From contig JAFTNE010000046.1 of NCBI GenBank assembly GCA_017452035.1, forward strand, positions 1-11,111: a DNA stretch of 11,111 nt. Direction: 5' to 3'. Position numbers and translations under genes: made by a program. Positions 1 to 11,111 of the stretch are shown here, piece after piece. Below the pieces are notes generated by a model. The model ran no database searches and was not told where the DNA came from. It saw only the letters and a program-made list of their open reading frames with translations. The first letter of the stretch is position 1. Every line of letters begins with the position of its first letter. This stretch comes from Clostridia bacterium. Its GTDB lineage: Bacteria > Bacillota > Clostridia > Christensenellales > CAG-314.

Positions 1-1392
1 CGCAGTACAATTAGCTTTTGGAAGGTTGCAACAATTGCATTGGCTCTTATACTTGTAGTTACGGGCATTTTTGGTGGTGTCGAACTGGGCGCAACAGCGC
101 AAGCAGCAGTTGTCGCATTGGACGTAAACCCCAGTATCGAGCTTAGAGTTGACGGTAGAAATCGCATTATCCAAGCAACTGCTAACAACGATGATGCGCA
201 AATAATACTGCAAAGCATGGACCTAAAAGGCTCCAAGTTGGACGTGGCTGTGTACGCTATCATTGGTTCGATGGTAACACACGGTTACCTTAGCGAGTAT
301 ACAAACTCCGTTTTGGTATCTGTCGATACAAAAAAACAAGACCTTTACAACGAAATTATCGATGTGGTAACAAGTAAAATTGAAGTAACACTAAAGGAAA
401 AAAATATTGAGTCCTCCGTTGTGGCACAATGGATCAAAGACAAGGATGAAATTGCCTCCATTGCCAACGAGTACAACATCTCCACAGGTAAAGCAACACT
501 CATCACAAAGATTATTGACGCAAGTAGCAAAGATACATCTGTCAACGCAACAGTGTACACAGTGGAAGATTTGGTAAACCGTACAGTAAACGAACTTGCC
601 ATCATCTTTGCAAAGTATGCAGGCGACAAGGTGGACGAAATTGTTACAAACGGCTCAGCAAGCGAAAAGGCTTACATTGGTAAAGACCAAGCCCTTGCAA
701 TTGCCCTTGAAGAGTTTGGCTTGTCATCCAACTTGGACACAGGACTTGACCTTCATACCAAGGTGGATTTGGATATTGAAAATGGTGTGATGGTTTATGA
801 AGTAGAGTTTGTATATGGCGACTACAAGTACGAAATTGACATCAAAGCAGTAAATGGTGAAATCATCAAGATGGAAAAGAAGGCGCTTTCTCTCCGTGAT
901 AACCCACCAGATGCCGAGCTTACTGATGATCAACTTATCGAAATTGCCACACAGGGTATCGAAAATGCAACCAACGTTACTATCGAGCGTGACGGCAAAA
1001 GGGTAGAGGTATTATTCCAAACGGAAGAACATTGCTACGAAGTAGAACTTACCCCCAATGGCAAAGTTGTAGGTATGGAAAAACACAACATCGTGCAGGG
1101 TGGCACTGACATCTTGACGGAGGAAAAAATTGAAAAGATTGCTTTGGAAATTTTGTCCCGTCAGTTGCACTTTTTGGATGGACAAATTGAGGAAATTGAC
1201 TGCGAACTAAGTGACGATGGCGCGTATTACGAAGTTTGTATCGAAGTGTTCGGTATGGAGTTCGACCTGCGCATCAACGCAGTTACTGGCGAACCAATGC
1301 GATTTGGTATGGGTAACCATGGCTTTGGCGATGGTGTACCAGGAGAACTGCCAGGTGGAACGGACGGCGACCATCACGGTGGTAGAGACTAA
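1..1392 (+). CDS. RsgI-like transmembrane anti-sigma factor with three C-terminal PepSY-like domains (5' partial)
   Basis: The frame is open from the first base, so the true start and the cytoplasmic sigma-binding domain lie upstream; the TTG at 40 falls inside the membrane segment and is not the start. Counting from window codon 1, residues 5-27 form one transmembrane helix. Residues 37-200 match the conserved RsgI extracellular middle domain: the LDVNPSIEL block, a 'DLKG' element, and GYL followed by NSVLVSV. RsgI proteins hold a SigI-type sigma factor at the membrane and release it after proteolysis; in the family an Asn-Pro bond in this block is the reported autocleavage site, here N43-P44. 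Three PepSY-like units follow (about 225-293, 307-360, 372-435), each an 'EIA' helix plus strands ending in 'VNGE', 'PNGK' or 'AVTGE', then a Gly/His/Asp-rich tail. The signal sensed is unknown. A sigI-like gene is expected just upstream. The RsgI assignment is confident; the PepSY assignment is by pattern. Confidence 0.88.
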   Translation, partial: RSTISFWKVATIALALILVVTGIFGGVELGATAQAAVVALDVNPSIELRVDGRNRIIQATANNDDAQIILQSMDLKGSKLDVAVYAIIGSMVTHGYLSEYTNSVLVSVDTKKQDLYNEIIDVVTSKIEVTLKEKNIESSVVAQWIKDKDEIASIANEYNISTGKATLITKIIDASSKDTSVNATVYTVEDLVNRTVNELAIIFAKYAGDKVDEIVTNGSASEKAYIGKDQALAIALEEFGLSSNLDTGLDLHTKVDLDIENGVMVYEVEFVYGDYKYEIDIKAVNGEIIKMEKKALSLRDNPPDAELTDDQLIEIATQGIENATNVTIERDGKRVEVLFQTEEHCYEVELTPNGKVVGMEKHNIVQGGTDILTEEKIEKIALEILSRQLHFLDGQIEEIDCELSDDGAYYEVCIEVFGMEFDLRINAVTGEPMRFGMGNHGFGDGVPGELPGGTDGDHHGGRD

Positions 1393-1401
1393 CAAAAACA
1401 A

Positions 1402-1425
1402 ATACTTTGTCATTTGTCAAAGTAT
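1402..1425. repeat. Short perfect inverted repeat downstream of the anti-sigma gene
   Basis: ATACTTTG (1402-1409) is repeated inverted as CAAAGTAT (1418-1425) around an 8-nt spacer. It lies 10 nt after the stop codon and just before the stronger terminator hairpin. There is no T-run directly after it, so by itself it is not a terminator. It may be a 3'-end stabilising hairpin or a protein-binding site; its role is not determined. Confidence 0.45.
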
Positions 1426-1439
1426 ATTCCCCCTTAAAG

Positions 1440-1466
1440 GAGCAGGCAAATACGCCTGCTCTTTTT
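1440..1466 (+). terminator. Intrinsic terminator of the anti-sigma factor gene
   Basis: GAGCAGGC (1440-1447), a 6-nt loop, and GCCTGCTC (1454-1461) form a perfect, GC-rich 8-bp stem followed by five T. It ends the upstream unit before the promoter of the TIR-methyltransferase gene. Confidence 0.92.
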
Positions 1467-1496
1467 GCTACTTTTGTTTCAATCAACAAAATACTA

Positions 1497-1525
1497 TTGC
1501 CAACAACTATCAAAAGTGCTATAAT
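1497..1525 (+). promoter_or_regulatory. Sigma-A-type extended -10 promoter of the TIR-methyltransferase gene
   Basis: The -35 TTGCCA (1497-1502), a 17-bp spacer and a perfect -10 TATAAT (1520-1525) are preceded by TGC (1517-1519), an extended -10. Transcription should begin near 1532, giving a short leader of about 37 nt before the start codon. The match predicts steady housekeeping-type expression. No operator-like repeat was seen on it. Confidence 0.85.
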
Positions 1526-1568
1526 ATTGTAGTTAAAACATAAACTAAAATTACTTTTGAGGTGCGCA

Positions 1569-2936
1569 ATGGAACAACAACGTTACGATGTGTTCATATC
1601 CTTCAAAAATACTGCTGCCGACGGCTCGCAAAGCGCTGACGCTCAACTTGCTTCGGAAATTTACAGACAGCTAACCGAGCGTGGCATATCTGCATTTTAC
1701 TCCAACGTAAAGTTGTTGGAGCTGGGGGAAGCTACATACAAAAAGGCTATTGAAGATGCTTTGGACCAATCTTCCATTTTGGTATGCATACTTTCCTGCA
1801 AGGAGTACGCAACAAGCAAGTGGGTCGAGTACGAACGCGAGTCCTTCCACGAGGACATTTTGTCTGGACGTAACCCCGGTGGTGTGATTGTTCCATACCT
1901 TGGTAACTTGCAAGGCAACGATATCCCACGTTCCATTCGCAACTACGAGTCCTTTATGATAGGCACACACAGCCCAGCTGACGTTTGCGACTTTGTTGCC
2001 AACATCATCAACAAACGCCGTGCAAGTGCGCCACAACAAGCAATGGGTCGCACTTCCCTTACCACTGGTAAAAGCTCGTCGCAATACTCTCCCGAGTACG
2101 GACGTGAGGCTCGCAGGTTGAAAATTCAAGCGCGCGAAACTCGCAATGCCGACATGCCAGCCATCCAATACTGCTTGGAACGTTTGCACAAGGACAAACT
2201 GTACGTTTTGGATGCCGGTTGCGCCTACGGCTACGTTACCAAAGACCGTTTTGCCGATATCCCCAACTCACTTGTTTTGGGTGTTGACCGTTCGCAAGGT
2301 TGCTTGGATACGGCACGTCAAAGTTTTAGCGCGCCAAACATAGTGTACGAAATGTTAGATTTGGAAAGTGAAGATTTTGACGACAATTTGCAAGACTTGA
2401 TGGACAAACACGACATCCCCAAGTTTGATATCATTTTTAGTTCTCTCGTTATCCACCACCTAAACAACCCACAAAAGTTTTTGAGACGACTTCGCAGATA
2501 CCTTGCTGATGACGGTTTTATAATCATCCGTGGTAGTGACGATGGCTCGGTAATGACCTACAATGATGATGGCCTAATTGAAAAAATCATCAAACTGCAC
2601 CTTTCTACTGACGGTATTTCCGACCGTGAAAACGGACGCAAAATTTACCACCAACTTATCACCTCTGGCTACAAAAACGTCAAGATGATAAACTACATCA
2701 AAGATTTGTCCGGTTTGAACCTCGACCAACGCTACGAATTTTACCTCGAGCGTTACGACTATCGCAAAAACTACCTCAAAATGGTTGCCGACAAAGACCC
2801 ATACAACATGGAAAAGCGCAACAACTACGAGTACATGAAGTTGCTCCTTGAAGAGTTGGAAAACAAGTTTGCCGACAAATCATTTTGGTGTTGCGAAATC
2901 GACTTTGTAGGTATCGCCCAAAAGGACAATATTTAG
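1569..2936 (+). CDS. TIR domain - class I SAM methyltransferase fusion protein
   Basis: A 455-aa soluble protein. ATG 1569 is chosen because GAGGTG (1559-1564) sits 4-5 nt upstream as ribosome binding site; an in-frame TTG at 1557 overlaps that site. Residues 5-148 are a TIR domain: YDVFISFK (6-13) is the first strand, FYSNVKLL (43-50) the BB-loop region, and SKWVEYE (83-89) the alpha-C motif. W85 and E89 align with the W-x-x-x-E pattern that carries the catalytic Glu in NAD-cleaving TIRs. A Ser/Gln-rich linker (about 151-180) follows. Residues 185-325 are a Rossmann methyltransferase: motif I VLDAGCAYG (213-221), acidic motif II ending D240, motif IV FDIIFSSLVIHHL (286-298), then a strand with GFIIIRG. 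Residues 326-455 form a charged helical tail that may bind substrate. It is expressed alone, with its own promoter. The methyl acceptor and TIR activity are unknown. Both domains are clear; a defence or signalling role is inference. Confidence 0.9.
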   Translation: MEQQRYDVFISFKNTAADGSQSADAQLASEIYRQLTERGISAFYSNVKLLELGEATYKKAIEDALDQSSILVCILSCKEYATSKWVEYERESFHEDILSGRNPGGVIVPYLGNLQGNDIPRSIRNYESFMIGTHSPADVCDFVANIINKRRASAPQQAMGRTSLTTGKSSSQYSPEYGREARRLKIQARETRNADMPAIQYCLERLHKDKLYVLDAGCAYGYVTKDRFADIPNSLVLGVDRSQGCLDTARQSFSAPNIVYEMLDLESEDFDDNLQDLMDKHDIPKFDIIFSSLVIHHLNNPQKFLRRLRRYLADDGFIIIRGSDDGSVMTYNDDGLIEKIIKLHLSTDGISDRENGRKIYHQLITSGYKNVKMINYIKDLSGLNLDQRYEFYLERYDYRKNYLKMVADKDPYNMEKRNNYEYMKLLLEELENKFADKSFWCCEIDFVGIAQKDNI

Positions 2937-3098
2937 GTATATTGTCTGCAAGATTTATCCTTCTTTTGATAACTTACACGCAGGCTGGTCCGTCCAACTG
3001 ACTATTAGCACACGCCATAATTTATTTTAGTATTTTATACTATAAAATCCATAGAAGAGGGGTTGCCCTCCCGTATCAATTTTTAATAGAAACATTTT
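2937..3098. other. Intergenic region with an AT-rich promoter-like patch and a small hairpin
   Basis: No coding frame is supported here. An AT-rich patch at 3021-3048 holds TATACT (3036-3041) and TATAAA (3041-3046), and TTAGCA/TAGTAT (3005-3010/3028-3033, 17-bp spacing) is a moderate promoter match on the plus strand. It also contains an imperfect inverted repeat around AGTAT/ATACT. Downstream, GAGGG (3057-3061), loop GTTG, CCCTC (3066-3070) is a compact hairpin. A transcript starting near 3045 would be a short leader running into the terminator at 3099. I did not recognise a known riboswitch class. Confidence 0.4.
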
Positions 3099-3127
3099 GC
3101 GACCATCCATTTGGGGTGGTCGCTTTT
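3099..3127 (+). terminator. Intrinsic terminator upstream of the Ca2+ ATPase gene
   Basis: GCGACCATCC (3099-3108), a 5-nt loop and GGGTGGTCGC (3114-3123) form a 10-bp stem with one G-T pair, followed by TTTTG and more T. It could end the TIR-methyltransferase transcript, 163 nt after that stop codon, or act as an attenuator in a leader of the ATPase gene, which begins 66 nt further on. Confidence 0.85.
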
Positions 3128-3192
3128 GTTTGTGTACAAGTCTATTTGGTGGTGCACTCGCATACACTTTTTAGTAGTATTTGGAGTGTATT

Positions 3193-5742
3193 TTGCAATT
3201 TGATAACGTTGGTTTGACGGAAATGGAGGCAACACGCATACTTAAAGAGCAGGGACCAAACATCCACTCGCGCAAAAAAAGGCGCACCTTTTTGCAAAAG
3301 TTTTTTGCCCAATTTGCCGATTTGATGATAGTAATTTTGCTTGTTGCGGCATTGCTCTCTTTTGGTATGGCAGTGTACTCTCGCGATACGTCCGAGCTTG
3401 CCGAACCCATCATCATTGTGGTAATTGTGCTGGCAAACGCTTTGCTTGGTGCAGTGCAGGAGCATCGCGCAGAAAAATCGTTGGATGCTTTGACGGCGCT
3501 CACTTCGCCAAAGACAAAGGTTATTCGCGATGGCGCATTGTGTCAAATGGAAAGCGAACGCATAGTTGTAGGGGACGTGTGCCTTTTTGAGTCGGGGGAC
3601 GTTGTTACTGCCGATTGCTTGGTGGTGCAAAGCAACGGCTTGTTTGTAAATCAGTCGCCACTAACGGGCGAAAGTATGCCCCAGGAAAAGGTTGCATCCA
3701 AGGTGGCAAGCGAAAGTAGCAAAGTTTTTTGCGCAAGCTTGGTAACAAAGGGCAGTTGTATGGCAAAGGTTTTTGCAACTGGCAAAAATACCGAAATTGG
3801 CAAAATTGCTGGCATGCTCAACGACACCAAGGATAACCTCACGCCCTTGCAACACAAGCTAAAACAGCTATCCAAGGTTATTGGTATTGTTTGCTTGGCT
3901 GTGTGTGTTTTGGTGCTTGTTGTGGGATTTATCAAGGGCGTATCGCAAAAAAAGCCCGACCAAACGCTAACGGAAGTGTTTTTGAACGTCTTGCTTACAT
4001 CCATTTCCCTTGCAGTTGCCGCAATACCCGAGGGGTTACCTGCCGTAGTTACGGTGGTGCTTGCCAAAGGTATTGTAAAAATGAGCAGTCAAAATGCCGT
4101 TGTCAAAAGGCTAACGGCCGTGGAGGCGCTTGGCTCTTGCAACGTTATTTGTACCGACAAAACTGGTACTTTGACGCAAAACAAAATGACCTTTGTGGGG
4201 CTGTTTGACGGCAGTGGGTACAAACTTGCACAAAACGTACCACCAACAAACAAACTTTTGCAGTACTACTCGCTGTGCAGTGACGCGTTGCAATATGCAT
4301 ATGGTGGTTTTGTTGGCGACCATACGGACATTTCCGTGGTTGCCGTTACCGATACCATCAAAAACTCAACACGTCTTTGCGAAATTCCCTTTGACTCTAC
4401 CACCAAACTGATGACAGTTGTAGTGCAAATTGATGGCAAAAACTACTGCATCACAAAGGGCAGTTTAGAAAAGATGTCCACTTCTCCAAATTACGCAAAC
4501 TTCAAACGCTACCACGATATGCTTGCGCAAAAGGGTTTGCGCGTGTTGGCGCTTTCGGTGGTGGAAGCACCAACCAACTTTGATAAATCCACCTTGCAAA
4601 GCAATCTAAACGTTGTGGGACTTTTTGCTCTTTCCGACCCACCCCGAAGGGAGGCAAAAAGGGCTGTTGCACTCACACAAAGCGCAGGTATTCGCACCGT
4701 GATGATAACGGGCGACAACATCCAAACAGCAACGGAAATTGCCAAAAAACTGGGCATAATGCACACGGGAGATATTGCGCTTGACGGCCAACAACTGTCA
4801 AAACTTTCGCAAGAGGACCTTGCCAACGTGGTGGAAAAGGTTTCGGTGTATGCCCGTGTTACGCCAGAGGATAAGCTCAAAATTGTCAAAGCGTGGCAAT
4901 CGGTGGGAAAAACTGTTGCCATGACGGGCGATGGTGTCAACGATGCCCCTGCGCTAAAAAGTGCCGATATCGGTTGCGCAATGGGTAGTGGCACTGATGT
5001 CGCCAAGGATAGTGCCGATATCATTTTGACGGACGACAACTTTGCTACCATTGTGGAGGCTGTATCACTTGGTCGCACCGTGCAAGACAACATCAAAAAG
5101 GCAGTAAACTACTTGTTGACCTGCAACATTGGCGAAATTTTGGCAGTGTTTGTGGCGTTGCTTGTGTGGGACGTTTCGCCATTTTCAGCTATGCAACTGC
5201 TGTGGGTAAACCTTGTTACCGACACGTTGCCAGCATTGGCTCTGGGAACTTTCAAGGGGGAAAGCAACGTAATGAACAGACCACCCAATAACAAAAACGC
5301 CACCTTTTTTGATGGTGGTGGGGTTGCAAAACTTGTTGTGGGTGGTGTTTCCTTTGGCGTTGCAACTTTGGTCGGCTATGCAGTTGGGCAAAGCTGTGGG
5401 GCAAATGCGCCCTCTACAATGGCATTTTTGATACTTTCCCTTTCGCAGTTGTTTTTTGCACTGCAAACAAGGAGCAATGGTGGGTTACTTAAAGGTGGCA
5501 TGACAAAAACAATGGCAGTTAGTATGGCAATTTCCTTTGCGTTGGTGTTTGTTGTGGCCCTTGTTAGCCCTTTGCAATCACTGTTTGACCTTGTCACTTT
5601 GCCCATCCCAATGTACCTTTGGGCAGTGCTTTTGTCCCTTGTGCCAACGGTATTGTTTGAAGTAGTTAGAGTTATTGGCAGTTCAAAAATTACCATTGGC
5701 AAAACTTCAACTACCAAAAAACGAGTAACGGCAAAAGTGTAA
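3193..5742 (+). CDS. P-type Ca2+-transporting ATPase (SERCA/type IIA-like)
   Basis: An 849-aa membrane pump that uses ATP to export Ca2+. The start is set at TTG 3193: GGAG (3183-3186) lies 6 nt upstream, and the conserved 'GLTE...GPN' N-terminus must be kept, which a later ATG at 3223 would remove. Seen in order: M1/M2 (about 43-92); actuator domain with TGES (158-161); M3/M4 with the Ca2+-site motif PEGLP (279-283); phosphorylation site DKTGTLT (D322); a compact nucleotide-binding domain with KGSLE (422-426); TGDN (506-509); hinge MTGDGVND (577-584); M5 with N645 and E648; M6 with N673, T676 and D677; M7-M10 to about residue 826; a basic tail. The Asn, Glu and Asp residues match SERCA N768, E771, N796 and D800. 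At the M8 position of SERCA E908 there appears to be Gln (Q752). Length is normal for bacterial members. Mg2+ or Na+ transport is much less likely. Confidence 0.93.
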   Translation: MQFDNVGLTEMEATRILKEQGPNIHSRKKRRTFLQKFFAQFADLMIVILLVAALLSFGMAVYSRDTSELAEPIIIVVIVLANALLGAVQEHRAEKSLDALTALTSPKTKVIRDGALCQMESERIVVGDVCLFESGDVVTADCLVVQSNGLFVNQSPLTGESMPQEKVASKVASESSKVFCASLVTKGSCMAKVFATGKNTEIGKIAGMLNDTKDNLTPLQHKLKQLSKVIGIVCLAVCVLVLVVGFIKGVSQKKPDQTLTEVFLNVLLTSISLAVAAIPEGLPAVVTVVLAKGIVKMSSQNAVVKRLTAVEALGSCNVICTDKTGTLTQNKMTFVGLFDGSGYKLAQNVPPTNKLLQYYSLCSDALQYAYGGFVGDHTDISVVAVTDTIKNSTRLCEIPFDSTTKLMTVVVQIDGKNYCITKGSLEKMSTSPNYANFKRYHDMLAQKGLRVLALSVVEAPTNFDKSTLQSNLNVVGLFALSDPPRREAKRAVALTQSAGIRTVMITGDNIQTATEIAKKLGIMHTGDIALDGQQLSKLSQEDLANVVEKVSVYARVTPEDKLKIVKAWQSVGKTVAMTGDGVNDAPALKSADIGCAMGSGTDVAKDSADIILTDDNFATIVEAVSLGRTVQDNIKKAVNYLLTCNIGEILAVFVALLVWDVSPFSAMQLLWVNLVTDTLPALALGTFKGESNVMNRPPNNKNATFFDGGGVAKLVVGGVSFGVATLVGYAVGQSCGANAPSTMAFLILSLSQLFFALQTRSNGGLLKGGMTKTMAVSMAISFALVFVVALVSPLQSLFDLVTLPIPMYLWAVLLSLVPTVLFEVVRVIGSSKITIGKTSTTKKRVTAKV

Positions 5743-5779
5743 AATACAATCAAAAGGTGTGCATGTTTTAGAAATTGGC

Positions 5780-5864
5780 TGTTTCCGTTGCCTTTGCCTC
5801 CCACTTTGGGAGGTGTAAGCAAATTGCTGATGGAGAGGGCATCACACCACGTCGTGTTTTTTTT
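5780..5864. repeat. Degraded structured intergenic repeat (two-hairpin, MITE-like)
   Basis: CCTCCCA (5797-5803), loop CTT, TGGGAGG (5807-5813) is a perfect 7-bp hairpin. It is followed by a second, imperfect one, TAAGCAA/TTGCTGA (5816-5822/5824-5830), then GGAGAGGGC and a CACGTCGTG stretch ending in eight T (5857-5864). Read on the minus strand, this order (CCTCTCC, a 'TCAGC..GCT.AC' hairpin, then a C-rich/G-rich hairpin and GGC) resembles dispersed non-coding repeats common between genes in clostridial genomes. The second stem has a mismatch, suggesting decay. Exact ends are uncertain, and only one copy is in the window. The 8-T run after GTCGTG may also help stop transcription. Confidence 0.55.
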
Positions 5865-5888
5865 GACAGGCGTAATATTTTCAATAAT

Positions 5889-5916
5889 AAAAGAGCAATC
5901 CTTGGATTGCTCTTTT
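5889..5916. terminator. Bidirectional intrinsic terminator between convergent genes
   Basis: AAAAGAGCAATCC (5889-5901) and GGATTGCTCTTTT (5904-5916) form a perfect 13-bp palindromic stem around TT. A-runs and T-runs flank the GC-containing core, so it works in both directions: for the ATPase gene on the plus strand and for the metallophosphoesterase gene on the minus strand, whose stop codon is 21 nt away. Confidence 0.93.
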
Positions 5917-5937
5917 GTTATGCTGATATACAGTTTT

Positions 5938-7665
5938 TTATCTCAAATCCAACACAAACTCTGTTTGAGCTGGGCCTTCTACAAATGGGTTGTAAACAGC
6001 AACTGTTTCGCCTTTGGAGTTGAGATACCAACAAGTTTGTTTGCCCGTAGCAAAATCAACACTTACTGCCATACCAATGTGGTCTTTGCGATTAAATGCG
6101 CCTACGTCATCCGTTTGAGTGGTGCCACGACGTCCAACAATAAATCCATCAAAGTTGGAGTCGGTTAGATACCCACCGTAGATTTTGCCTTCCTCGCCCT
6201 TAAATTGGCTGTTGTAAATAAGTTTGCCCTTTTCATTGTACATTGTTTCTTGACCAGCCAAGAAGGGGTACAAGTCGTGTTGGTGTCCGTAAACTGCCAA
6301 GTCAACGCCAATTTGGTTGAGTAAATCCGTCCAATCTGCTTTAACTTCCGTGTGGTTTTTGCGAGAGTTTACAAACTGAATGGGGATGTGGCAAGCAACC
6401 AAAGTGTAGTTGTAGTTTTCGTATGGTTTTGTTGCAAGTAAGTCTTGCAAAAACAGCGTTTGCTCCTTGTGATACAAGTCAAATTGTGCTGTGCCGTAGT
6501 ACTCCCACCAGTCGTCATCGTGGTCTTCCCCAAGGTCAAGTGTGATTCCAAAAACATCATCAAGCTTAAACCAGTAGTAGAAACTGCCATTTTTGCTACC
6601 AACGTATTTGTGTAGTTCTTCGGCGTACAACCCCTTTATTTCGTGGTTACCACGCGCGTAAACAACGGGCATTTCCCCTTTGGTAACGTCATACGCAAGT
6701 AGGTTAGAGTATTGTACGTCCACTTCACGGTCTACCATACCTACCGAGTCGCCCAAAATTACCAAAAAGTCCAAGTCTTTTACCGACAATGCCGTAGCTA
6801 CTGCCCCTTTGCGTGCGTGGTGCACGTCACTCATAACGTAGTAAACAAGTCCGTTGGATGTATCCACAGGACGGAAATTGTAGCTTTTGCTGATTTCTTT
6901 ACCCTTAAAGCCACCAAATGGCCCACGGTAAATCATCTTTTCGGCATGGATGGAGTAACCTTTTGCATTGTCAAGCTTGTCTTGTGGAATTACAATTTTG
7001 TGGACAGTGTCGTTGGATTTCATACTGCCGGCAAACAAGTCGTAGTATTTTTCGCCACCAACTTCCACCCAAGCCGTTGCCGAGTGGTTTGTGCTAAACA
7101 CAATTTGGTAGGTATCTTCCACGGCGTATACAACAGGTTCGTAGGTAAAGTAGCTACCAATTGTAACGCCAAATCCACCAAACACGCCAATTAGAATTGC
7201 AAGTGCTATGCACACGCATTTGAGCGCAATGCCCAGTTTGCCATTTTTGACAGGTGGATAAAACAACAGTAGTGCAAAAACAATAATGCACAAACTGATG
7301 ACGAAGGAATCAAAAAACTTTGGCACAATAAAGTACAAGTAGTCGATTGCGCCCATCACAACAACTACAATGCTTGCAACGGTAAACACGCCAAGCACTG
7401 CCGTCAAGGTGATTTTGGGCCACTTTTTGTCGCGTAAAAACAGCAAGCTTGCAACACTAAATGCAAAAATGCACCAAAGTAGCACGCAAATGTACAGTGG
7501 CAAGTTTAGCAAAAATGCTGTTGGATCTCCAACGCCAAATACATCGGCAATTACCTTAGAAATACCACTCCAAATAACGCGCATTGCCAGCCAAAACAGC
7601 GCAATAACAAGCGACCAAAGGGAGCAAATAACACTCCACAAATTCTTTTTGATATCTTTTAGCAT
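5938..7665 (-). CDS. Membrane-anchored calcineurin-like metallophosphoesterase with purple-acid-phosphatase-like layout
   Basis: A 575-aa protein. ATG at 7665 has AAGGAG 8-9 nt upstream. Five hydrophobic segments (about 9-33, 52-77, 84-110, 119-138, 144-172) have basic flanks MLKDIKK, RDKKWPK and VKNGK on the same side, predicting N-terminus in and the C-terminal domain outside. Residues 185-265 resemble the beta-sandwich domain preceding the catalytic domain in purple acid phosphatases ('YQIVFSTNHSATAWVEV'). The catalytic domain (about 273-540) shows the full metal-binding set: DVHH (D280, H282), GDS (D306), GNHE (N340, H341), the ACHIP histidine (H426) and GHQH (H461, H463). It should be a two-metal phosphoesterase acting outside the cell; the substrate (phosphomonoester, nucleotide or lipid) cannot be read from the sequence. 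It is second in an operon, 11 nt after the upstream gene, whose stop codon touches its ribosome binding site, so translation is probably coupled. Confidence 0.9.
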   Translation of the reverse strand: MLKDIKKNLWSVICSLWSLVIALFWLAMRVIWSGISKVIADVFGVGDPTAFLLNLPLYICVLLWCIFAFSVASLLFLRDKKWPKITLTAVLGVFTVASIVVVVMGAIDYLYFIVPKFFDSFVISLCIIVFALLLFYPPVKNGKLGIALKCVCIALAILIGVFGGFGVTIGSYFTYEPVVYAVEDTYQIVFSTNHSATAWVEVGGEKYYDLFAGSMKSNDTVHKIVIPQDKLDNAKGYSIHAEKMIYRGPFGGFKGKEISKSYNFRPVDTSNGLVYYVMSDVHHARKGAVATALSVKDLDFLVILGDSVGMVDREVDVQYSNLLAYDVTKGEMPVVYARGNHEIKGLYAEELHKYVGSKNGSFYYWFKLDDVFGITLDLGEDHDDDWWEYYGTAQFDLYHKEQTLFLQDLLATKPYENYNYTLVACHIPIQFVNSRKNHTEVKADWTDLLNQIGVDLAVYGHQHDLYPFLAGQETMYNEKGKLIYNSQFKGEEGKIYGGYLTDSNFDGFIVGRRGTTQTDDVGAFNRKDHIGMAVSVDFATGKQTCWYLNSKGETVAVYNPFVEGPAQTEFVLDLR

Positions 7666-7676
7666 AGGGTTTCTCC

Positions 7677-8051
7677 TTAGATTTCTCTAATCTCATCGTC
7701 AATTTTTTTAAACTTCACCATTGTTAGCGTACAAAACTGTTCCAAGTAACAATCGTCTTTTTTATAGATCATATGCCCATCAATGCAAAGTTCTTTACAG
7801 AATTCTATATACCTGAGTTTTTCTTCGTCCGTCAAAGCTGTGGTGTACTCAATTTCTGCAAATGGTGTACAATCTACGGGATGGCCAGCCTCACTCGCAC
7901 AAGTAATTGGAGCAAGATACAATTTTTTGCCATGTTGCAACGAAAAATCTTTCATCGAATCAACAACTTTTTGCAACTTTTCAATGCTAAGATCGTGCAA
8001 ATCTGCTGAACGTATTTGGTTGGTATAAAGTTTTATAATTACGTAATCCAT
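7677..8051 (-). CDS. Uncharacterised 124-aa Cys-containing protein
   Basis: Not recognised. ATG 8051 is chosen because GGGAGG (complement of 8057-8062) is 5 nt upstream; the frame stays open to 8168, but those extra codons run across the promoter. The protein is acidic to neutral, lacks a signal peptide or membrane segment, and is predicted cytosolic. It has six cysteines (51, 61, 85, 89, 101, 107), including a C-x3-C pair (85/89), which might bind a metal but match no motif I know. A mixed alpha/beta pattern is likely: MDYVIIKLYT strand, SIEKLQKVVDSMKDF helix, TDEEKLRYIEFCKEL helix, LTMVKFKKI strand. It is the first gene of a two-gene operon with the membrane metallophosphoesterase. Its codons look AT-richer than its neighbours', so it may have a different origin. 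Gene reality is supported by the ribosome binding site and consensus promoter. Confidence 0.75.
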   Translation of the reverse strand: MDYVIIKLYTNQIRSADLHDLSIEKLQKVVDSMKDFSLQHGKKLYLAPITCASEAGHPVDCTPFAEIEYTTALTDEEKLRYIEFCKELCIDGHMIYKKDDCYLEQFCTLTMVKFKKIDDEIREI

Positions 8052-8126
8052 ATTGTCCTCCCTATGCACCATACATCTAAACAAGAGCATTGTTTGTGTA
8101 CAGTGTAAGAATATTTGTTGATTGGT

Positions 8127-8155
8127 ATTATAGCATATATGCCGTGCAATTTCAA
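8127..8155 (-). promoter_or_regulatory. Sigma-A-type promoter of the 124-aa protein / metallophosphoesterase operon
   Basis: On the minus strand, -35 TTGAAA (complement of 8150-8155), a 17-bp spacer and a perfect -10 TATAAT (complement of 8127-8132) lie about 75 nt upstream of the start codon at 8051. The position, right after the MORN-gene terminator, makes this the start of a separate two-gene unit. Confidence 0.87.
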
Positions 8156-8176
8156 GATTCAATACCATAATAACTT

Positions 8177-8209
8177 AAAAAAGTCGTGCAAGTTAGACAC
8201 GACTTTTTT
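8177..8209. terminator. Bidirectional intrinsic terminator after the MORN-repeat gene
   Basis: AAAAAAGTCGTG (8177-8188) and CACGACTTTTTT (8198-8209) form a perfect 12-bp stem with a 9-nt loop, with A- and T-runs suited to both directions. Its functional direction here is minus, ending the MORN-gene transcript 55 nt after the stop codon and insulating the promoter at 8127-8155. Confidence 0.92.
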
Positions 8210-8263
8210 GTAACGTATGTATTTGTGTATACTAAGCTTTGTTTTGCGTTAGCAACTCAAAAA

Positions 8264-9259
8264 TTAGTATTCGTTTTTGAGTGTTTTGATATCTCTAATC
8301 AAGGAAATTGGTCCCAAGATAGGTGCTGCAATAAAGTAGTAGGTTTGTATCAGCGCAAACAAGCCAAGGAACAGTACAATCAGTTGAATGAAGTTACCTC
8401 TTGTGTTGTGGTATGTCTGTTTTTCTTCGGAGCCGTCGCTGTAACGTGTTGTGGTTGTTGTTACGGAAACAACTTCCCAGAAAGATGGGTCTTTCAGTTC
8501 TTCGATAACAGCCAAACCGGATTTTTTCAGTGCAACAATGGTGCCGTAGTAGAACAACCAAAGTCCACAACCGAAAAATCCCGACATAAGTTGACCTATC
8601 AATGCGCTAACACGCTCTTTTTGCCCAACTTGTCCTTCGGTAGCGAAAAATTGAACAAGAGCCAAAGCAATAATGCCCAAACCAAACAAACAGCAAATGG
8701 ACTTGAAAACAATTCGAGCAATAAGTTTACCTTTGCCCTTTTTGTTTCCCGTTCCACTGGACTTTTTGCCAAAGCCAGATGAAGATGCCTTTGGTGCCGA
8801 TTTCTTTGTGGGTTTAGATGAGCCACCACCCAAGCCACGATGCAAACGACTGCGTGCTGCCGATTGTCTTGCAGTTGGCTCGCTATCGTAGTCATCATCG
8901 TCATAGGAACTGTCGTAGTCGCCATCGGAGCTATCATCGTAGTAGCCACCATCGTCATATCCTACGTCATCAGGATCTTCCGTTCCAACATAGTCGCCTT
9001 CATCCCAGTAGCCAAATTGTGTGTCGCCATCAGCGTAGTAGTACACGCCTTGGCCGTGCTTTGCGTGTTCCTTCCAGTAGCCCTCGTAACGGTCACCATT
9101 TGCGTAGTACATAGTGCCGTAACCGTGCATTTGACCGTTTAGCCAGTCACCTTCGTAGCGATTGCCACTGTTCCAAGTGAAAACGCCAAAGCCGTTTTCT
9201 TCACCATTAGCCACATCGCCGTAGTAGTAGCCGTCTGAGTAGTTTATTCTTTGTGCCAT
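8264..9259 (-). CDS. MORN-repeat protein with acidic linker and C-terminal membrane segments
   Basis: A 331-aa protein. ATG 9259 follows a G-rich ribosome binding site (complement of 9265-9273), and the protein then begins directly with its repeats; an upstream GTG or ATG extension to 9304 would read through that site. Three clear MORN repeats and one partial one span 9-92, with the signatures YGDVANGEENGFGVFTW, NRYEGDWLNGQMHGYGTM, DRYEGYWKEHAKHGQGVYYY and QFGYWDEG. Residues 93-127 are strongly acidic (Asp/Tyr/Gly/Ser); 128-178 are basic and Ser/Gly/Lys-rich, probably disordered. Hydrophobic segments at about 180-204, 218-243 and 289-315 anchor it in the membrane; the basic KKGKGK before the first suggests the MORN part is cytoplasmic. 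A Thr run (267-271) lies between segments two and three. MORN repeats usually mediate membrane or protein binding; the specific role is unknown. Transcribed alone or by read-through from the upstream minus-strand genes. Confidence 0.85.
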   Translation of the reverse strand: MAQRINYSDGYYYGDVANGEENGFGVFTWNSGNRYEGDWLNGQMHGYGTMYYANGDRYEGYWKEHAKHGQGVYYYADGDTQFGYWDEGDYVGTEDPDDVGYDDGGYYDDSSDGDYDSSYDDDDYDSEPTARQSAARSRLHRGLGGGSSKPTKKSAPKASSSGFGKKSSGTGNKKGKGKLIARIVFKSICCLFGLGIIALALVQFFATEGQVGQKERVSALIGQLMSGFFGCGLWLFYYGTIVALKKSGLAVIEELKDPSFWEVVSVTTTTTRYSDGSEEKQTYHNTRGNFIQLIVLFLGLFALIQTYYFIAAPILGPISLIRDIKTLKNEY

Positions 9260-9475
9260 AGTTTCCCCCCCCCTGTGGTAGTGCAATAACTTTGCTACTA
9301 CCATATTTGTTATGCATGTTAATGATTTTTAATTACAAATTGCAAATACGCATTTTTTTAGATACGTATTGAGTTTTTTGCCTGTTTGCATAAAAGCAGT
9401 GGCTTTTGGTATACCAATTTTGCCGTTTTGTGTGATTGCCAACCTTATCCAAATCATTTGTGTTAGCTTGTCGCT
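9260..9475. other. 216-nt non-coding gap with palindrome and G9 tract
   Basis: No gene is supported here. From right to left on the minus strand it holds a perfect 12-bp palindrome TTGGTATACCAA (9406-9417), a weak hairpin AAAAGC/GCTTTT (9392-9397/9402-9407) that may be a poor terminator of the DUF1963 gene, an inverted AATACG/CGTATT pair (9347-9370), and an AT-rich stretch with only weak promoter matches (TTGCAA, 18 bp, TAACAT). Next to the MORN start codon is a homopolymer of nine G on the minus strand (9265-9273). Whether the MORN gene has its own promoter is not settled by the sequence. Confidence 0.5.
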
Positions 9476-10030
9476 TTACGAAAACTCCTCTTGTAGCCAA
9501 ACTTCCTCAACATCGTTGGGGTCGTCTCCATAAAAGAAGTACACAAAACCATCCAAAAAGCTCAAAAAGCCCATGTCGTTATCTAGTGGGTCAAATTGCA
9601 AAAGCATCTTTGGTGGAGTTTCTTCGTAGTTCCAGTCGCTGGGGTTGCCAAGTAGCTTTGTGCAAATTTCGTCATCATCTACCTCACAAAACTCCATTAG
9701 GTACGCCTCGCCAAACTGCTGATAGCCTTCTACCTGTCCATTGAACTGGTCCAAAACAACCTCTGGCTCGCCATCGTGGTATTTGACGTCGGCAAGTAGG
9801 TCGTATGGGCCACCCTCGGTGTGGATAAAAATGTACAGGTAGCCTGTGTGTGGTAATTTATTTTCAGTATCGAGATGGGCAATATCTTGCAAGCGTATTT
9901 GTGCAAAGAATATTTCGTCATCGTAAAACTCGCCTTCCCAGCCCAAAGGTATGGTAGGGTCGCCAAAAAATTTTGATGCCGACAGGTCGTAGTCGCCACT
10001 TGCTTTTTTTACTTTGATACCAATTGCCAT
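9476..10030 (-). CDS. DUF1963 / YwqG-family protein
   Basis: A 184-aa cytosolic protein. ATG 10030 has AAAGGAGAG about 6 nt upstream. Family features seen: 'FFGDPTIPLGWEG' (residues 21-33), 'FFAQIRLQDI' (41-50, the usual F-x-x-Q-I-x-L), 'GYLYIFI' (63-69, the G-x-L-x-x-F element), 'TKLLGNPSDW' (124-133, the H-x-L-L-G-x-P element) and 'LLQFDP' (143-148), followed by an aromatic strand FVYFFYGDD. This order matches DUF1963/YwqG, a fold of unknown biochemical role found in many Bacillota, in some genomes beside LXG or other secreted toxin genes. The C-terminus is short and acidic. Its start is 2 nt after the stop of the preceding gene, so the two are almost surely translationally coupled. An immunity or chaperone-like role is only an inference. 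Confidence 0.8.
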   Translation of the reverse strand: MAIGIKVKKASGDYDLSASKFFGDPTIPLGWEGEFYDDEIFFAQIRLQDIAHLDTENKLPHTGYLYIFIHTEGGPYDLLADVKYHDGEPEVVLDQFNGQVEGYQQFGEAYLMEFCEVDDDEICTKLLGNPSDWNYEETPPKMLLQFDPLDNDMGFLSFLDGFVYFFYGDDPNDVEEVWLQEEFS

Positions 10031-10032
10031 GT

Positions 10033-10383
10033 TTAGCTCTCCTTTTGCTCCAATGTCAAAACAACGTAGTCGTTACGCTCCCAAACAAACTCGTTATTGC
10101 CACCTTGTGCGTGTTCGTTACGCAACACATCCTTGGGGTTTTGCAACGATACCACACCGTAAACGCCATATTTTGGTGTTTTTTCGTCAACAAACGTTAC
10201 GTGTATCACTTCGCCATCAATGTTGTCAATGCGAATTGTCTCTCCACGGCTGGTCGCCTCGGCGTACTCAACAACTTCAAAAACTTCGTTCCAGTAGTGG
10301 CGATACCAACTGCCACTTTGGTACTCGCTTGTTTCGCGTGTTAGTCGTAAGATGTATTTTGACCAATCTACAATATTACTCAT
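10033..10383 (-). CDS. Uncharacterised 116-aa protein in the Sel1/DUF1963 operon
   Basis: Not recognised. ATG 10383 overlaps the TGA of the upstream Sel1-like gene in an ATGA arrangement, and GGGAG lies just before it, so the start is well set. The protein is soluble, without a signal peptide or membrane segment. It opens with a Trp/Tyr-rich helix-like stretch (WSKYILRLTRE, then SWYRHYWNEVFEVVEYAEA) and continues as probable beta strands (ETIRIDNIDGEVIHVTFVDE, YGVYGVVSLQ, FVWERNDYVVLTLEQ), resembling a small alpha plus beta-barrel domain. The aromatic content suits a protein-binding role. Its fixed place between a Sel1-repeat gene and a DUF1963 gene suggests these three products act together or in sequence. 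No catalytic motif is visible. Confidence 0.72.
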   Translation of the reverse strand: MSNIVDWSKYILRLTRETSEYQSGSWYRHYWNEVFEVVEYAEATSRGETIRIDNIDGEVIHVTFVDEKTPKYGVYGVVSLQNPKDVLRNEHAQGGNNEFVWERNDYVVLTLEQKES

Positions 10384-11111
10384 AGTTGCTCCCTACTCTT
10401 TTGGATAAATGCTTTGGCCTTTATGGCAAACTCGTTACCATCTTCTACGCCACGATCAATCCAACGTTCAGCGAAACTCACGCTTGTGTGGCAGCCTATG
10501 CTACCACCACCGTTGTCCGTTTCGTAACTGCAAGCGCCCTCGTGACCTTGACTTAGGTAACTGAGGTATGCCCCTGAAAACAATGTAAATTCTTCACTTG
10601 CGCCCAAAGTGTAGTCGCACTTTGCCATGGCCCAAAGACAGGCCGTTTTGCGAGATAGTGCCACAAACTTGTGTTTGTGTAGATAGTCCTCACGCTTGCT
10701 GGATTTCTCTTCGTCTTTGTAGAACCACTTGCTGGCATTATTTACCATGCGCTTGTAGGCATATTCCCCTTCGCCAACGGATGCCAAAAGTAGTAGTGCG
10801 TGGTACTCGTCCCAATCTATATTGTTCAATCTGTCCAATACATCATGGCCGTAGCCAAGTTTCCAAAAGCGAGCAACGTCCTCAAAACTCTTTGCATACA
10901 GGTAGTGTACGTATGCCTTGTCAAGGTCCTTTTGTACACCAAGGCCATTTTCCAACATTTTTGCCATCAATTTGTGGGCACCGGTGTTGACTCTAAAAAA
11001 CATGTCCGCATCAAGGTGCTTGCCAACAAGATTAAGAGACTCATTATAGTTGCCCCTTTGTAGATAAATTGTTGCCTTTACAACGTCGTCGTCCGTCTCA
11101 GCCAAAGCAAC
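10380..11111 (-). CDS. Sel1-like repeat protein (5' partial)
   Basis: The frame is open to the right window edge, so the N-terminus is missing; a TTG at 11105 is an internal Leu codon more likely than a start. At least 243 residues are visible. A Sel1-like repeat is seen near the start of the visible part: GAHKLMAKMLENGLGVQKDLDKAYVHYLYA, with the G-x-G-V-x-K-D-x-x-K-A core. The rest is alpha-helical and less clearly repeated, with aromatic helices, e.g. SFAERWIDRGVEDGNEFAIKAKAF near the C-terminus, which resembles a final degenerate repeat. A 'NGGGSIGCHTS' loop breaks the helices. No signal peptide or membrane segment is present in the visible part. Sel1 repeats form helical solenoids that hold protein partners. 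It is the first visible gene of the coupled three-gene cluster and overlaps the next gene by 4 nt. Specific function unknown. Confidence 0.75.
   Translation of the reverse strand, partial: VALAETDDDVVKATIYLQRGNYNESLNLVGKHLDADMFFRVNTGAHKLMAKMLENGLGVQKDLDKAYVHYLYAKSFEDVARFWKLGYGHDVLDRLNNIDWDEYHALLLLASVGEGEYAYKRMVNNASKWFYKDEEKSSKREDYLHKHKFVALSRKTACLWAMAKCDYTLGASEEFTLFSGAYLSYLSQGHEGACSYETDNGGGSIGCHTSVSFAERWIDRGVEDGNEFAIKAKAFIQKSREQL

Follow-up and report, generated by a model that had tools for sequence, protein, structure and literature searches.

What does a TIR domain do when it is joined in a single chain to a methyltransferase? The question is raised by a gene on the forward strand of an 11,111-nucleotide stretch of DNA from a gut organism, Clostridia bacterium (assembly GCA_017452035.1, contig JAFTNE010000046.1, positions 1 to 11,111; hereafter the window), whose product has an N-terminal TIR domain and a C-terminal class I S-adenosylmethionine (SAM) methyltransferase. 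The new point made here is modularity: one methyltransferase subfamily carries exchangeable N-terminal domains. The sequences suggest a suicide or immune protein not described before, with the methyltransferase half as its switch or sensor and a TIR half that probably destroys cellular nicotinamide adenine dinucleotide (NAD). The gene and the parts of its product are listed below, with model confidence given as the predicted local distance difference test (pLDDT).

1569..2936, + strand, TIR-methyltransferase gene, 455 residues (open reading frame scan, Pfam, homolog search, alignment)
1584..2027, + strand, TIR domain, residues 6-153 (Pfam; strand/helix alternation, pLDDT block means 70-95)
1821..1835, + strand, W85-x-x-x-E89
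2028..2102, + strand, linker, residues 154-178, the least conserved stretch (pLDDT block means 53, 55 and 72)
2103..2924, + strand, class I SAM methyltransferase domain, residues 179-452
2115..2117, + strand, R183, a pocket arginine
2205..2231, + strand, SAM motif I VLDAGCAYG, residues 213-221
2286..2288, + strand, D240
2532..2549, + strand, GSDDGS, residues 322-327, including D324-D325
2619..2642, + strand, SDRxNGRK, residues 351-358, including R353 and R357

Two halves of one protein

The N-terminal half belongs to the TIR superfamily by its Pfam matches to TIR_2 (PF13676; 39.8 bits over residues 8-111, cut-off 28) and TIR (PF01582; 30.8 bits against 21.3). W85 and E89, to which the original prediction had drawn attention, are both invariant in an alignment of 76 proteins (the window protein and 75 of the 120 homologs listed). 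E89 stands where the catalytic glutamate of helix C is found in TIR NADases, is presumed to be the NADase glutamate, and is kept in all 128 TIR-type representatives of the wider family described below (W85 in 111 of the 128); its loss across homologs, together with a closed pocket, had been named in advance as fatal to an enzymatic TIR. The TIR domain of ThsB, from the Thoeris system, likewise carries a catalytic glutamate. Thoeris differs in that the ThsB_TIR model scores only 16.8 bits on the window protein against a cut-off of 21.2, and Pfam gave no ThsA-type family match among the eight other window proteins.

The C-terminal half matches Methyltransf_12 over residues 214-318 (53.9 bits against 30) and five methyltransferase Pfam models above cut-off in all, their best stretches lying inside residues 198-324; Methyltransf_9 and Methyltransf_PK fall below their cut-offs. 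Motif I and D240 are where they had been predicted, and motif I together with the fold places the domain among the class I SAM methyltransferases. The 76-protein alignment has D215, G217, C218 and G221 in every row and D240 in at least 90% of rows. Also invariant are S292, L293, V294, H296, H297, L298 and N300 of the segment SLVIHHLNNP that follows strand 286-292. The AlphaFold model of the window protein has a mean pLDDT of 88.2 and a predicted template modelling score of 0.63, with low confidence at about residues 151-170; fold comparison of this model covered residues 157-455.

With the window protein as query we found 342 homologous proteins, and the 120 listed are 54-94% identical to it over 95-100% of the query. 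Five of them (P0030, P0037, P0046, P0052 and P0068) have no precomputed TIR label in Pfam, yet they align over 98-99%. The fusion belongs to a family of homologs and is therefore no assembly artefact or chance join, a possibility that the original prediction had left for a joint search of the two domains to settle.

Exchangeable N-terminal domains on a constant methyltransferase

A profile of the methyltransferase alone (A3) recovered TIR-methyltransferases with several unlike TIR domains from the same order. A search with the protein of locus L031 gave 74 proteins, of which 35 have a precomputed TIR match and 34 (P0121-P0154) group with L031 itself, the rest being short or otherwise built; among the 34, Paenibacillus is the named source of three, P0145 is without the N-terminal part and P0143 without its start. 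The N-terminus of these L031-type sister proteins is predicted to be helical and contains RxxxxH in all 33 rows with letters there, of 37. They share this invariant motif and the helical N-terminal domain with the HEPN toxins, going by the available part of PMC3710099, which also reports that one HEPN family is occasionally fused to nucleic acid methylases. Four HEPN families (Swt1, Apea, Ymh and DUF3644) gave weak matches to one L031-type member each, and we refer to the domain as HEPN-like, an assignment that is weak. A profile search of the PDB with this domain returned only the Top7 protein (E 0.26), and in a fold search with a HEPN-type model all 50 best matches listed were methyltransferases. 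The HEPN-like N-terminus was also seen on another C-terminus, V4R-like by eye, in P0158 and P0168 (P0158 has no Pfam match).

A third type was reached from a haloarchaeal plasmid protein with 51 relatives. Those with a name are haloarchaeal, except P0244 (Flavobacteriales, partial), and 41 of the 51 have more than 140 residues ahead of the methyltransferase. DUF4062 was detected by Pfam (E <=0.01) in 15 of the 42 members scanned, P0238 reaching 27.5 bits against a cut-off of 24.7. DUF4062 is described in a 2026 preprint (PMC13174449) as a TIR-like NADase with antiphage activity. In the parts of that preprint available, the Swarozyc proteins resemble ours in joining this NADase to an auxiliary domain in one protein, which in KpSwz meets the phage portal; they differ in that the main text does not contain 'methyltransf'.

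For counting, 247 pooled proteins were reduced to 245 with a methyltransferase, to 167 without near-duplicates and to 166 once the fragment L073 was set aside: 128 TIR-type, 31 HEPN-type, six short and one archaeal, HEPN-type being assigned by profile and TIR-type by elimination. Three TIR rows miss the pattern of the start motif, namely L024 (a long 5' extension of the reading frame), P0049 (a truncated start) and P0193 (a divergent TIR recognised by Pfam). The DUF4062-type alignment contains the 49 of 51 hits that were long enough, near-copies retained. Prokaryotic suicide and immune proteins are often built in this way, with effector-type N-termini exchanged on a core that stays constant.

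How often the N-terminus has changed was considered on a methyltransferase tree of 94 rows chosen from the 166. The 31 HEPN-type rows and three short forms make up one group (Shimodaira-Hasegawa-like approximate likelihood ratio test support 95), and TIR-type groups lie on more than one side of it, with the branching order among them unsettled. When only TIR and HEPN rows are counted a single change is needed, so one TIR/HEPN-like exchange explains the sampled set. Exchange between TIR subtypes is likely, though not proven, from the sequences. In L056 and P0194 a TIR of the FISYRR type is joined to a methyltransferase whose nearest relatives are those of FISFKN-type proteins; after P0194, the L056 TIR is closest to those of L036, L063 and L062 (84-94 bits), with FISFKN TIRs at 35 bits or less. 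In topology tests on 36-row trees, the methyltransferase data rejected the FISYRR-TIR set, which was named after the similarity had been noticed, as one clade (approximately unbiased test, p-AU 1.4e-4). The TIR data group these proteins with support of 43, or of 90 without three long rows.

Neither TIR-methyltransferases nor DUF4062-methyltransferases are described in the literature that we searched, which was mostly outside subscription papers, and the original prediction, too, knew of no description of a TIR paired with a soluble methyltransferase. A term look-up covering part of PMC7159879, PMC3710099, PMC10853773, PMC8195603, PMC7075850, PMC9092222 and PMC10937652 likewise gave no description of TIR-methyltransferases.

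A constant pocket and a candidate switch

The three sets share an unchanging pocket. R183, D325, R353 and R357 are invariant in all of them (128/128 TIR-type, 31/31 HEPN-type and 49/49 DUF4062-type), and D324 is found in 128/128, 29/31 and 38/49. From the usual layout of class I methyltransferases we take R183, D325, R353 and R357 to lie at the acceptor-substrate site, and because three of these conserved pocket residues are arginines they suggest that the ligand would be anionic. The structure 3mgg, a Methanosarcina mazei methyltransferase, differs here: the matched chain has no TIR domain, and the alignment does not match R353 and D324-D325 of the window protein. Motif I is conserved across the same three sets (D215 with G217 in 127/128, 31/31 and all 49 aligned), and D240, which we take to be the acidic residue at the usual SAM-ribose position, is Asp in 119 and Glu in seven of the 128 TIR-type and Asp in 31/31 HEPN-type proteins. 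D215 and G217 are missing in L036 alone among TIR-type and HEPN-type representatives; this protein (L036:6962-8290) is the sole TIR-type representative without motif I, and it keeps the TIR glutamate and the pocket arginines.

We see about an even chance that these proteins are self-contained switches in which the methyltransferase core gates an exchangeable N-terminal executioner. The methyltransferase half would be the constant, ligand-binding regulatory core, and the executioner would be a TIR NADase here and, in the relatives, a HEPN-like putative RNase or the DUF4062 TIR-like NADase. The core would be triggered when it binds SAM and/or a small anionic substrate that is conserved, or when this ligand is lost in infection or metabolic collapse. 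Such a ligand event would alter the shape or assembly of the core, whereupon the TIR domains would cluster and cleave NAD+, and growth would stop or the cell would die. The sequences show the fusion itself, catalytic-type residues conserved in both halves, N-terminal classes that are exchanged and a pocket that is not; NAD cleavage, gating, toxicity, a part in immunity and the identity of the ligand are inferred. That the methyltransferase may sense a ligand and gate the TIR had been among the ideas of the original prediction, whose interpretation is thus supported in part. TIR-STING, TIR-SAVED and TIR-NLR fusions also place a TIR and a ligand-binding sensor in a single chain; the window protein differs in that its sensor would be a SAM methyltransferase fold. 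To our knowledge, TIR and HEPN suicide proteins all sense by means of binding domains, and a SAM-binding enzyme fold that stays constant while the killer is exchanged would, if true, be a new, metabolism-responsive sensor class. It would also offer a direct way to test for guarding of the cellular SAM pool against phages. The conserved pocket residues make its ligand findable. A bolder version, which we think rather unlikely, is a receptor superfamily of bacteria and archaea in which the methyltransferase has become a guard of a metabolite disturbed by phages, either SAM or a methyl acceptor, and fires whichever killer domain is joined to it (TIR, HEPN-like or DUF4062). If true, it would represent a new sensing principle, a cofactor pool being guarded with no phage part bound.

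The same counts bear on two other arrangements. The methyltransferase could itself be the effector, with the TIR a self-assembling scaffold that gathers methyltransferases on a target and has no NADase role, much like the adaptor that the original prediction had allowed for. The near-universal motif I and the constant pocket would suit this, as would the comparison of the 76 close homologs, in which the methyltransferase half varies less than the N-terminal half. It is nevertheless quite unlikely, since a scaffold needs no catalytic glutamate and E89 is kept throughout TIR subtypes that are very unlike, more strictly than W85. In addition, the replacement domain with its invariant RxxxxH points to catalysis, and L036 has lost motif I while retaining E89 and the pocket arginines. 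A methyltransferase acting as a built-in antitoxin, which modifies and thereby silences either the toxin at its own N-terminus or the target of that toxin, would account for the presence of an N-terminal domain beside the methyltransferase in 160 of the 166 representatives (six are short). We regard this as very improbable, because TIR, HEPN-like and DUF4062 domains are unrelated and would all need to be silenced by one and the same methyltransferase, and the L058 and L069 methyltransferases have no N-terminal domain in the same frame.

Distribution and constraint

The gene is patchily distributed. In its family, 15 of 41 genomes have some match and six a full-length copy; in its genus full-length copies are present in five of 25 genomes, its own included. 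Matches to the methyltransferase profile were obtained from 26 of 297 genomes of the order and from two of 398 in a sample of the phylum, the latter being its own genome and one 60-bit match. The copy on L001, a contig of genome G003, has the RsgI-like and ATPase neighbours seen in the window, and those on L012 (G005) and L010 (G017), from the same genus, have different flanks. Both flanking genes occur widely in the genus (ATPase 25/25, RsgI-like 19/25); a comparison with empty sites was not clean, since 19 genomes of the genus have the two genes and 17 of these have them on separate contigs.

Between the window and L001, the TIR-methyltransferase, the ATPase and the RsgI-like protein have amino acid identities of 92.5%, 75% and 66%, with fourfold-site differences of 0.44, 0.47 and 0.60, respectively. 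On these figures the gene is of about the same age as the ATPase gene and is under much stronger protein constraint. Identical residues number 140/153 in the TIR, 17/25 in the linker and 264/277 in the methyltransferase. This constraint, together with the lack of a clear defence-island signal described below, leads us to favour an unchanging metabolite, possibly SAM itself, as a better trigger for the proposed switch than a phage protein would be. A viral origin of the gene was considered and rejected on searches of phage records, viral contigs and plasmids.

Genomic context of homologs

We compared 101 proteins near homologs (36 loci; seven of the 101 added by hand) with 98 far proteins (35 loci). 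PADLOC matched 85 families in the near set and 32 in the far set, where a type II methyltransferase and a type IIG enzyme are among the 25 listed. The original prediction had proposed a check of the neighbourhoods for defence genes, and no clear defence island emerged from this comparison. The genomic context proves neither immunity nor its absence. Among the 25 largest neighbour clusters listed there is no family-wide partner gene, and the only partners are local ones, for example in L004/L005/L008 and in L019/L020/L022.

Two neighbourhood patterns bring in further explanations. GNAT proteins (PF00583) account for six members of the near set of 101, against at most one of 98 far; overlap with the gene was the reason for adding two of the six by hand. 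In at least four loci (L035:5872-6474, L036:6318-6950, L095:8371-9000 and L097:7856-8401) a GNAT gene adjoins a divergent TIR-methyltransferase gene and shares its strand, the two overlapping or lying within about 12 bases of each other. Such a partner would be in keeping with coupled steps, in which an ADP-ribose-type product of the TIR, or a partner, is then methylated by the other half to yield a modified signal molecule; both active sites look intact, and the conserved arginines would suit an anionic substrate. We consider this distinctly improbable, given that the HEPN-type proteins would yield no ADP-ribose and keep the same pocket, and that no signal receptor stands out among the 25 largest clusters listed, in which only generic ABC ATPases and local genes recur.

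The second pattern concerns the methyl cycle and one-carbon metabolism. In L003 the TIR-methyltransferase follows MetY and MetA genes (by eye) at 9 to 20 bases, and LuxS and formate-tetrahydrofolate (THF) ligase, identified by Pfam, account for two of the 101 near proteins each; genes of this kind lie at L003:7777-9980, L019:11404-11871, L020:9271-9747, L012:7547-9217 and L090:681-2327, the loci for LuxS and the ligase being assigned by eye. Together with the strong protein constraint and the lack of clear defence islands, this would suit a metabolic regulator outside immunity that tunes the NAD or methyl-group economy of gut Clostridia. We find that improbable: the pattern was spotted post hoc and FolD occurs once in the far set, the gene is patchy within its genus, and its flanks differ among the same-genus carriers L001, L010 and L012. 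Nor did 16 sources searched contain a SAM or S-adenosylhomocysteine riboswitch above the gathering score, and control of the gene by either was rejected on this ground. L010 does contain a THF riboswitch, at a distance of about 7 kb from the gene.

Weighing the switch

The following observations weigh against the proposed switch or against the modularity on which it builds. The SAM site is intact in almost all members, so that the protein may be a plain active enzyme. The gene is more conserved than its neighbours, unlike arms-race genes, and those in the window encode, by Pfam, a phosphoesterase, a cation ATPase and an RsgI-like protein; its patchiness may in part reflect gaps in incomplete genomes. 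Phage records contained no relative, the scan of viral contigs yielded a single pattern match without a confirmed relative, and plasmids gave five partial matches, none covering 80% of the query. There is no clear defence-island signal in the comparison of near and far proteins, the near set being partly hand-picked: among the 25 PADLOC families listed, repeated near matches are mostly to ATPase-type models and most others rest on single proteins. The HEPN-like domain matched HEPN_RiboL-PSP in five of nine L031-type proteins at a best, sub-threshold E of 0.007, and unrelated models were matched by one member each, FlgM at E 0.0064. The hhalign probabilities are similarly weak, at 27.9 for HEPN_RiboL-PSP relatives, 6.8 for another HEPN-motif set and 0.20 for a third, weak HEPN set, with three controls at or below 0.35. 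The haloarchaeal query itself has no DUF4062 match, and the putative catalytic-glutamate column of its set reads Glu in 24, Asp in 15 and another residue in three of 42. Finally, the TIR tree does not reject the arrangements opposed to exchange between TIR subtypes (p-AU 0.2, 0.164 and 0.0503).

Transcription unit and neighbouring systems

The gene starts at an ATG with GAGG six bases ahead of it (by eye), and an alternative TTG start 12 bases upstream is also open. The surrounding signals are as follows.

1436..1465, + strand, terminator-like hairpin in the gap between the RsgI-like and TIR-methyltransferase genes, 12 pairs
1497..1525, + strand, promoter-like TTGCCA-17-TATAAT with TG preceding the second hexamer (11/12 matches; extended, strong)
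3099..3123, + strand, terminator-like hairpin downstream of the gene, 10 pairs, seven of them G-C, then TTTT

With this strong promoter-like site and the flanking hairpins, the gene is probably a separate transcription unit between the RsgI-like and cation ATPase genes, in a scanned region (1350-3250) that holds six promoter-like sites against 3.4 expected and five terminator-like sites against 2.4. The RsgI-like protein (window 1-1392) has a PepSY domain and is, towards L001, less conserved than the genes after it.

Other TIR-related genes occur near some homologs. TIR_2 was matched by two near proteins, and one TIR-like gene was hand-added. Beside the TIR-methyltransferase of two species of one genus (L091:8769-15434 and L095:8987-15499) lies a cluster of four genes, of which two encode large uncharacterised proteins and the others, judged by eye, a KGGSGR-type ATPase and a TIR-like protein, and a DUF4062-NACHT protein is encoded nearby in L036. 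Zinc-ribbon proteins (by eye) with a TIR related to that of the window protein are found in L037:3607-9431, L038:5292-11596 and L039:5885-8655, each gene adjoining an integrase-like gene (by eye), by appearance a mobile TIR system. In L019 (6050-8058) separate methyltransferase and TIR genes are adjacent about 2 kb before the fused gene. A downstream gene pair (923-958 and 299-318 residues) recurs at about 11363-15141 in L004, L005 and L008, the L004 pair having no Pfam match, and L004 also carries a ROOL RNA (6905-7445) about 2.5 kb from the gene.
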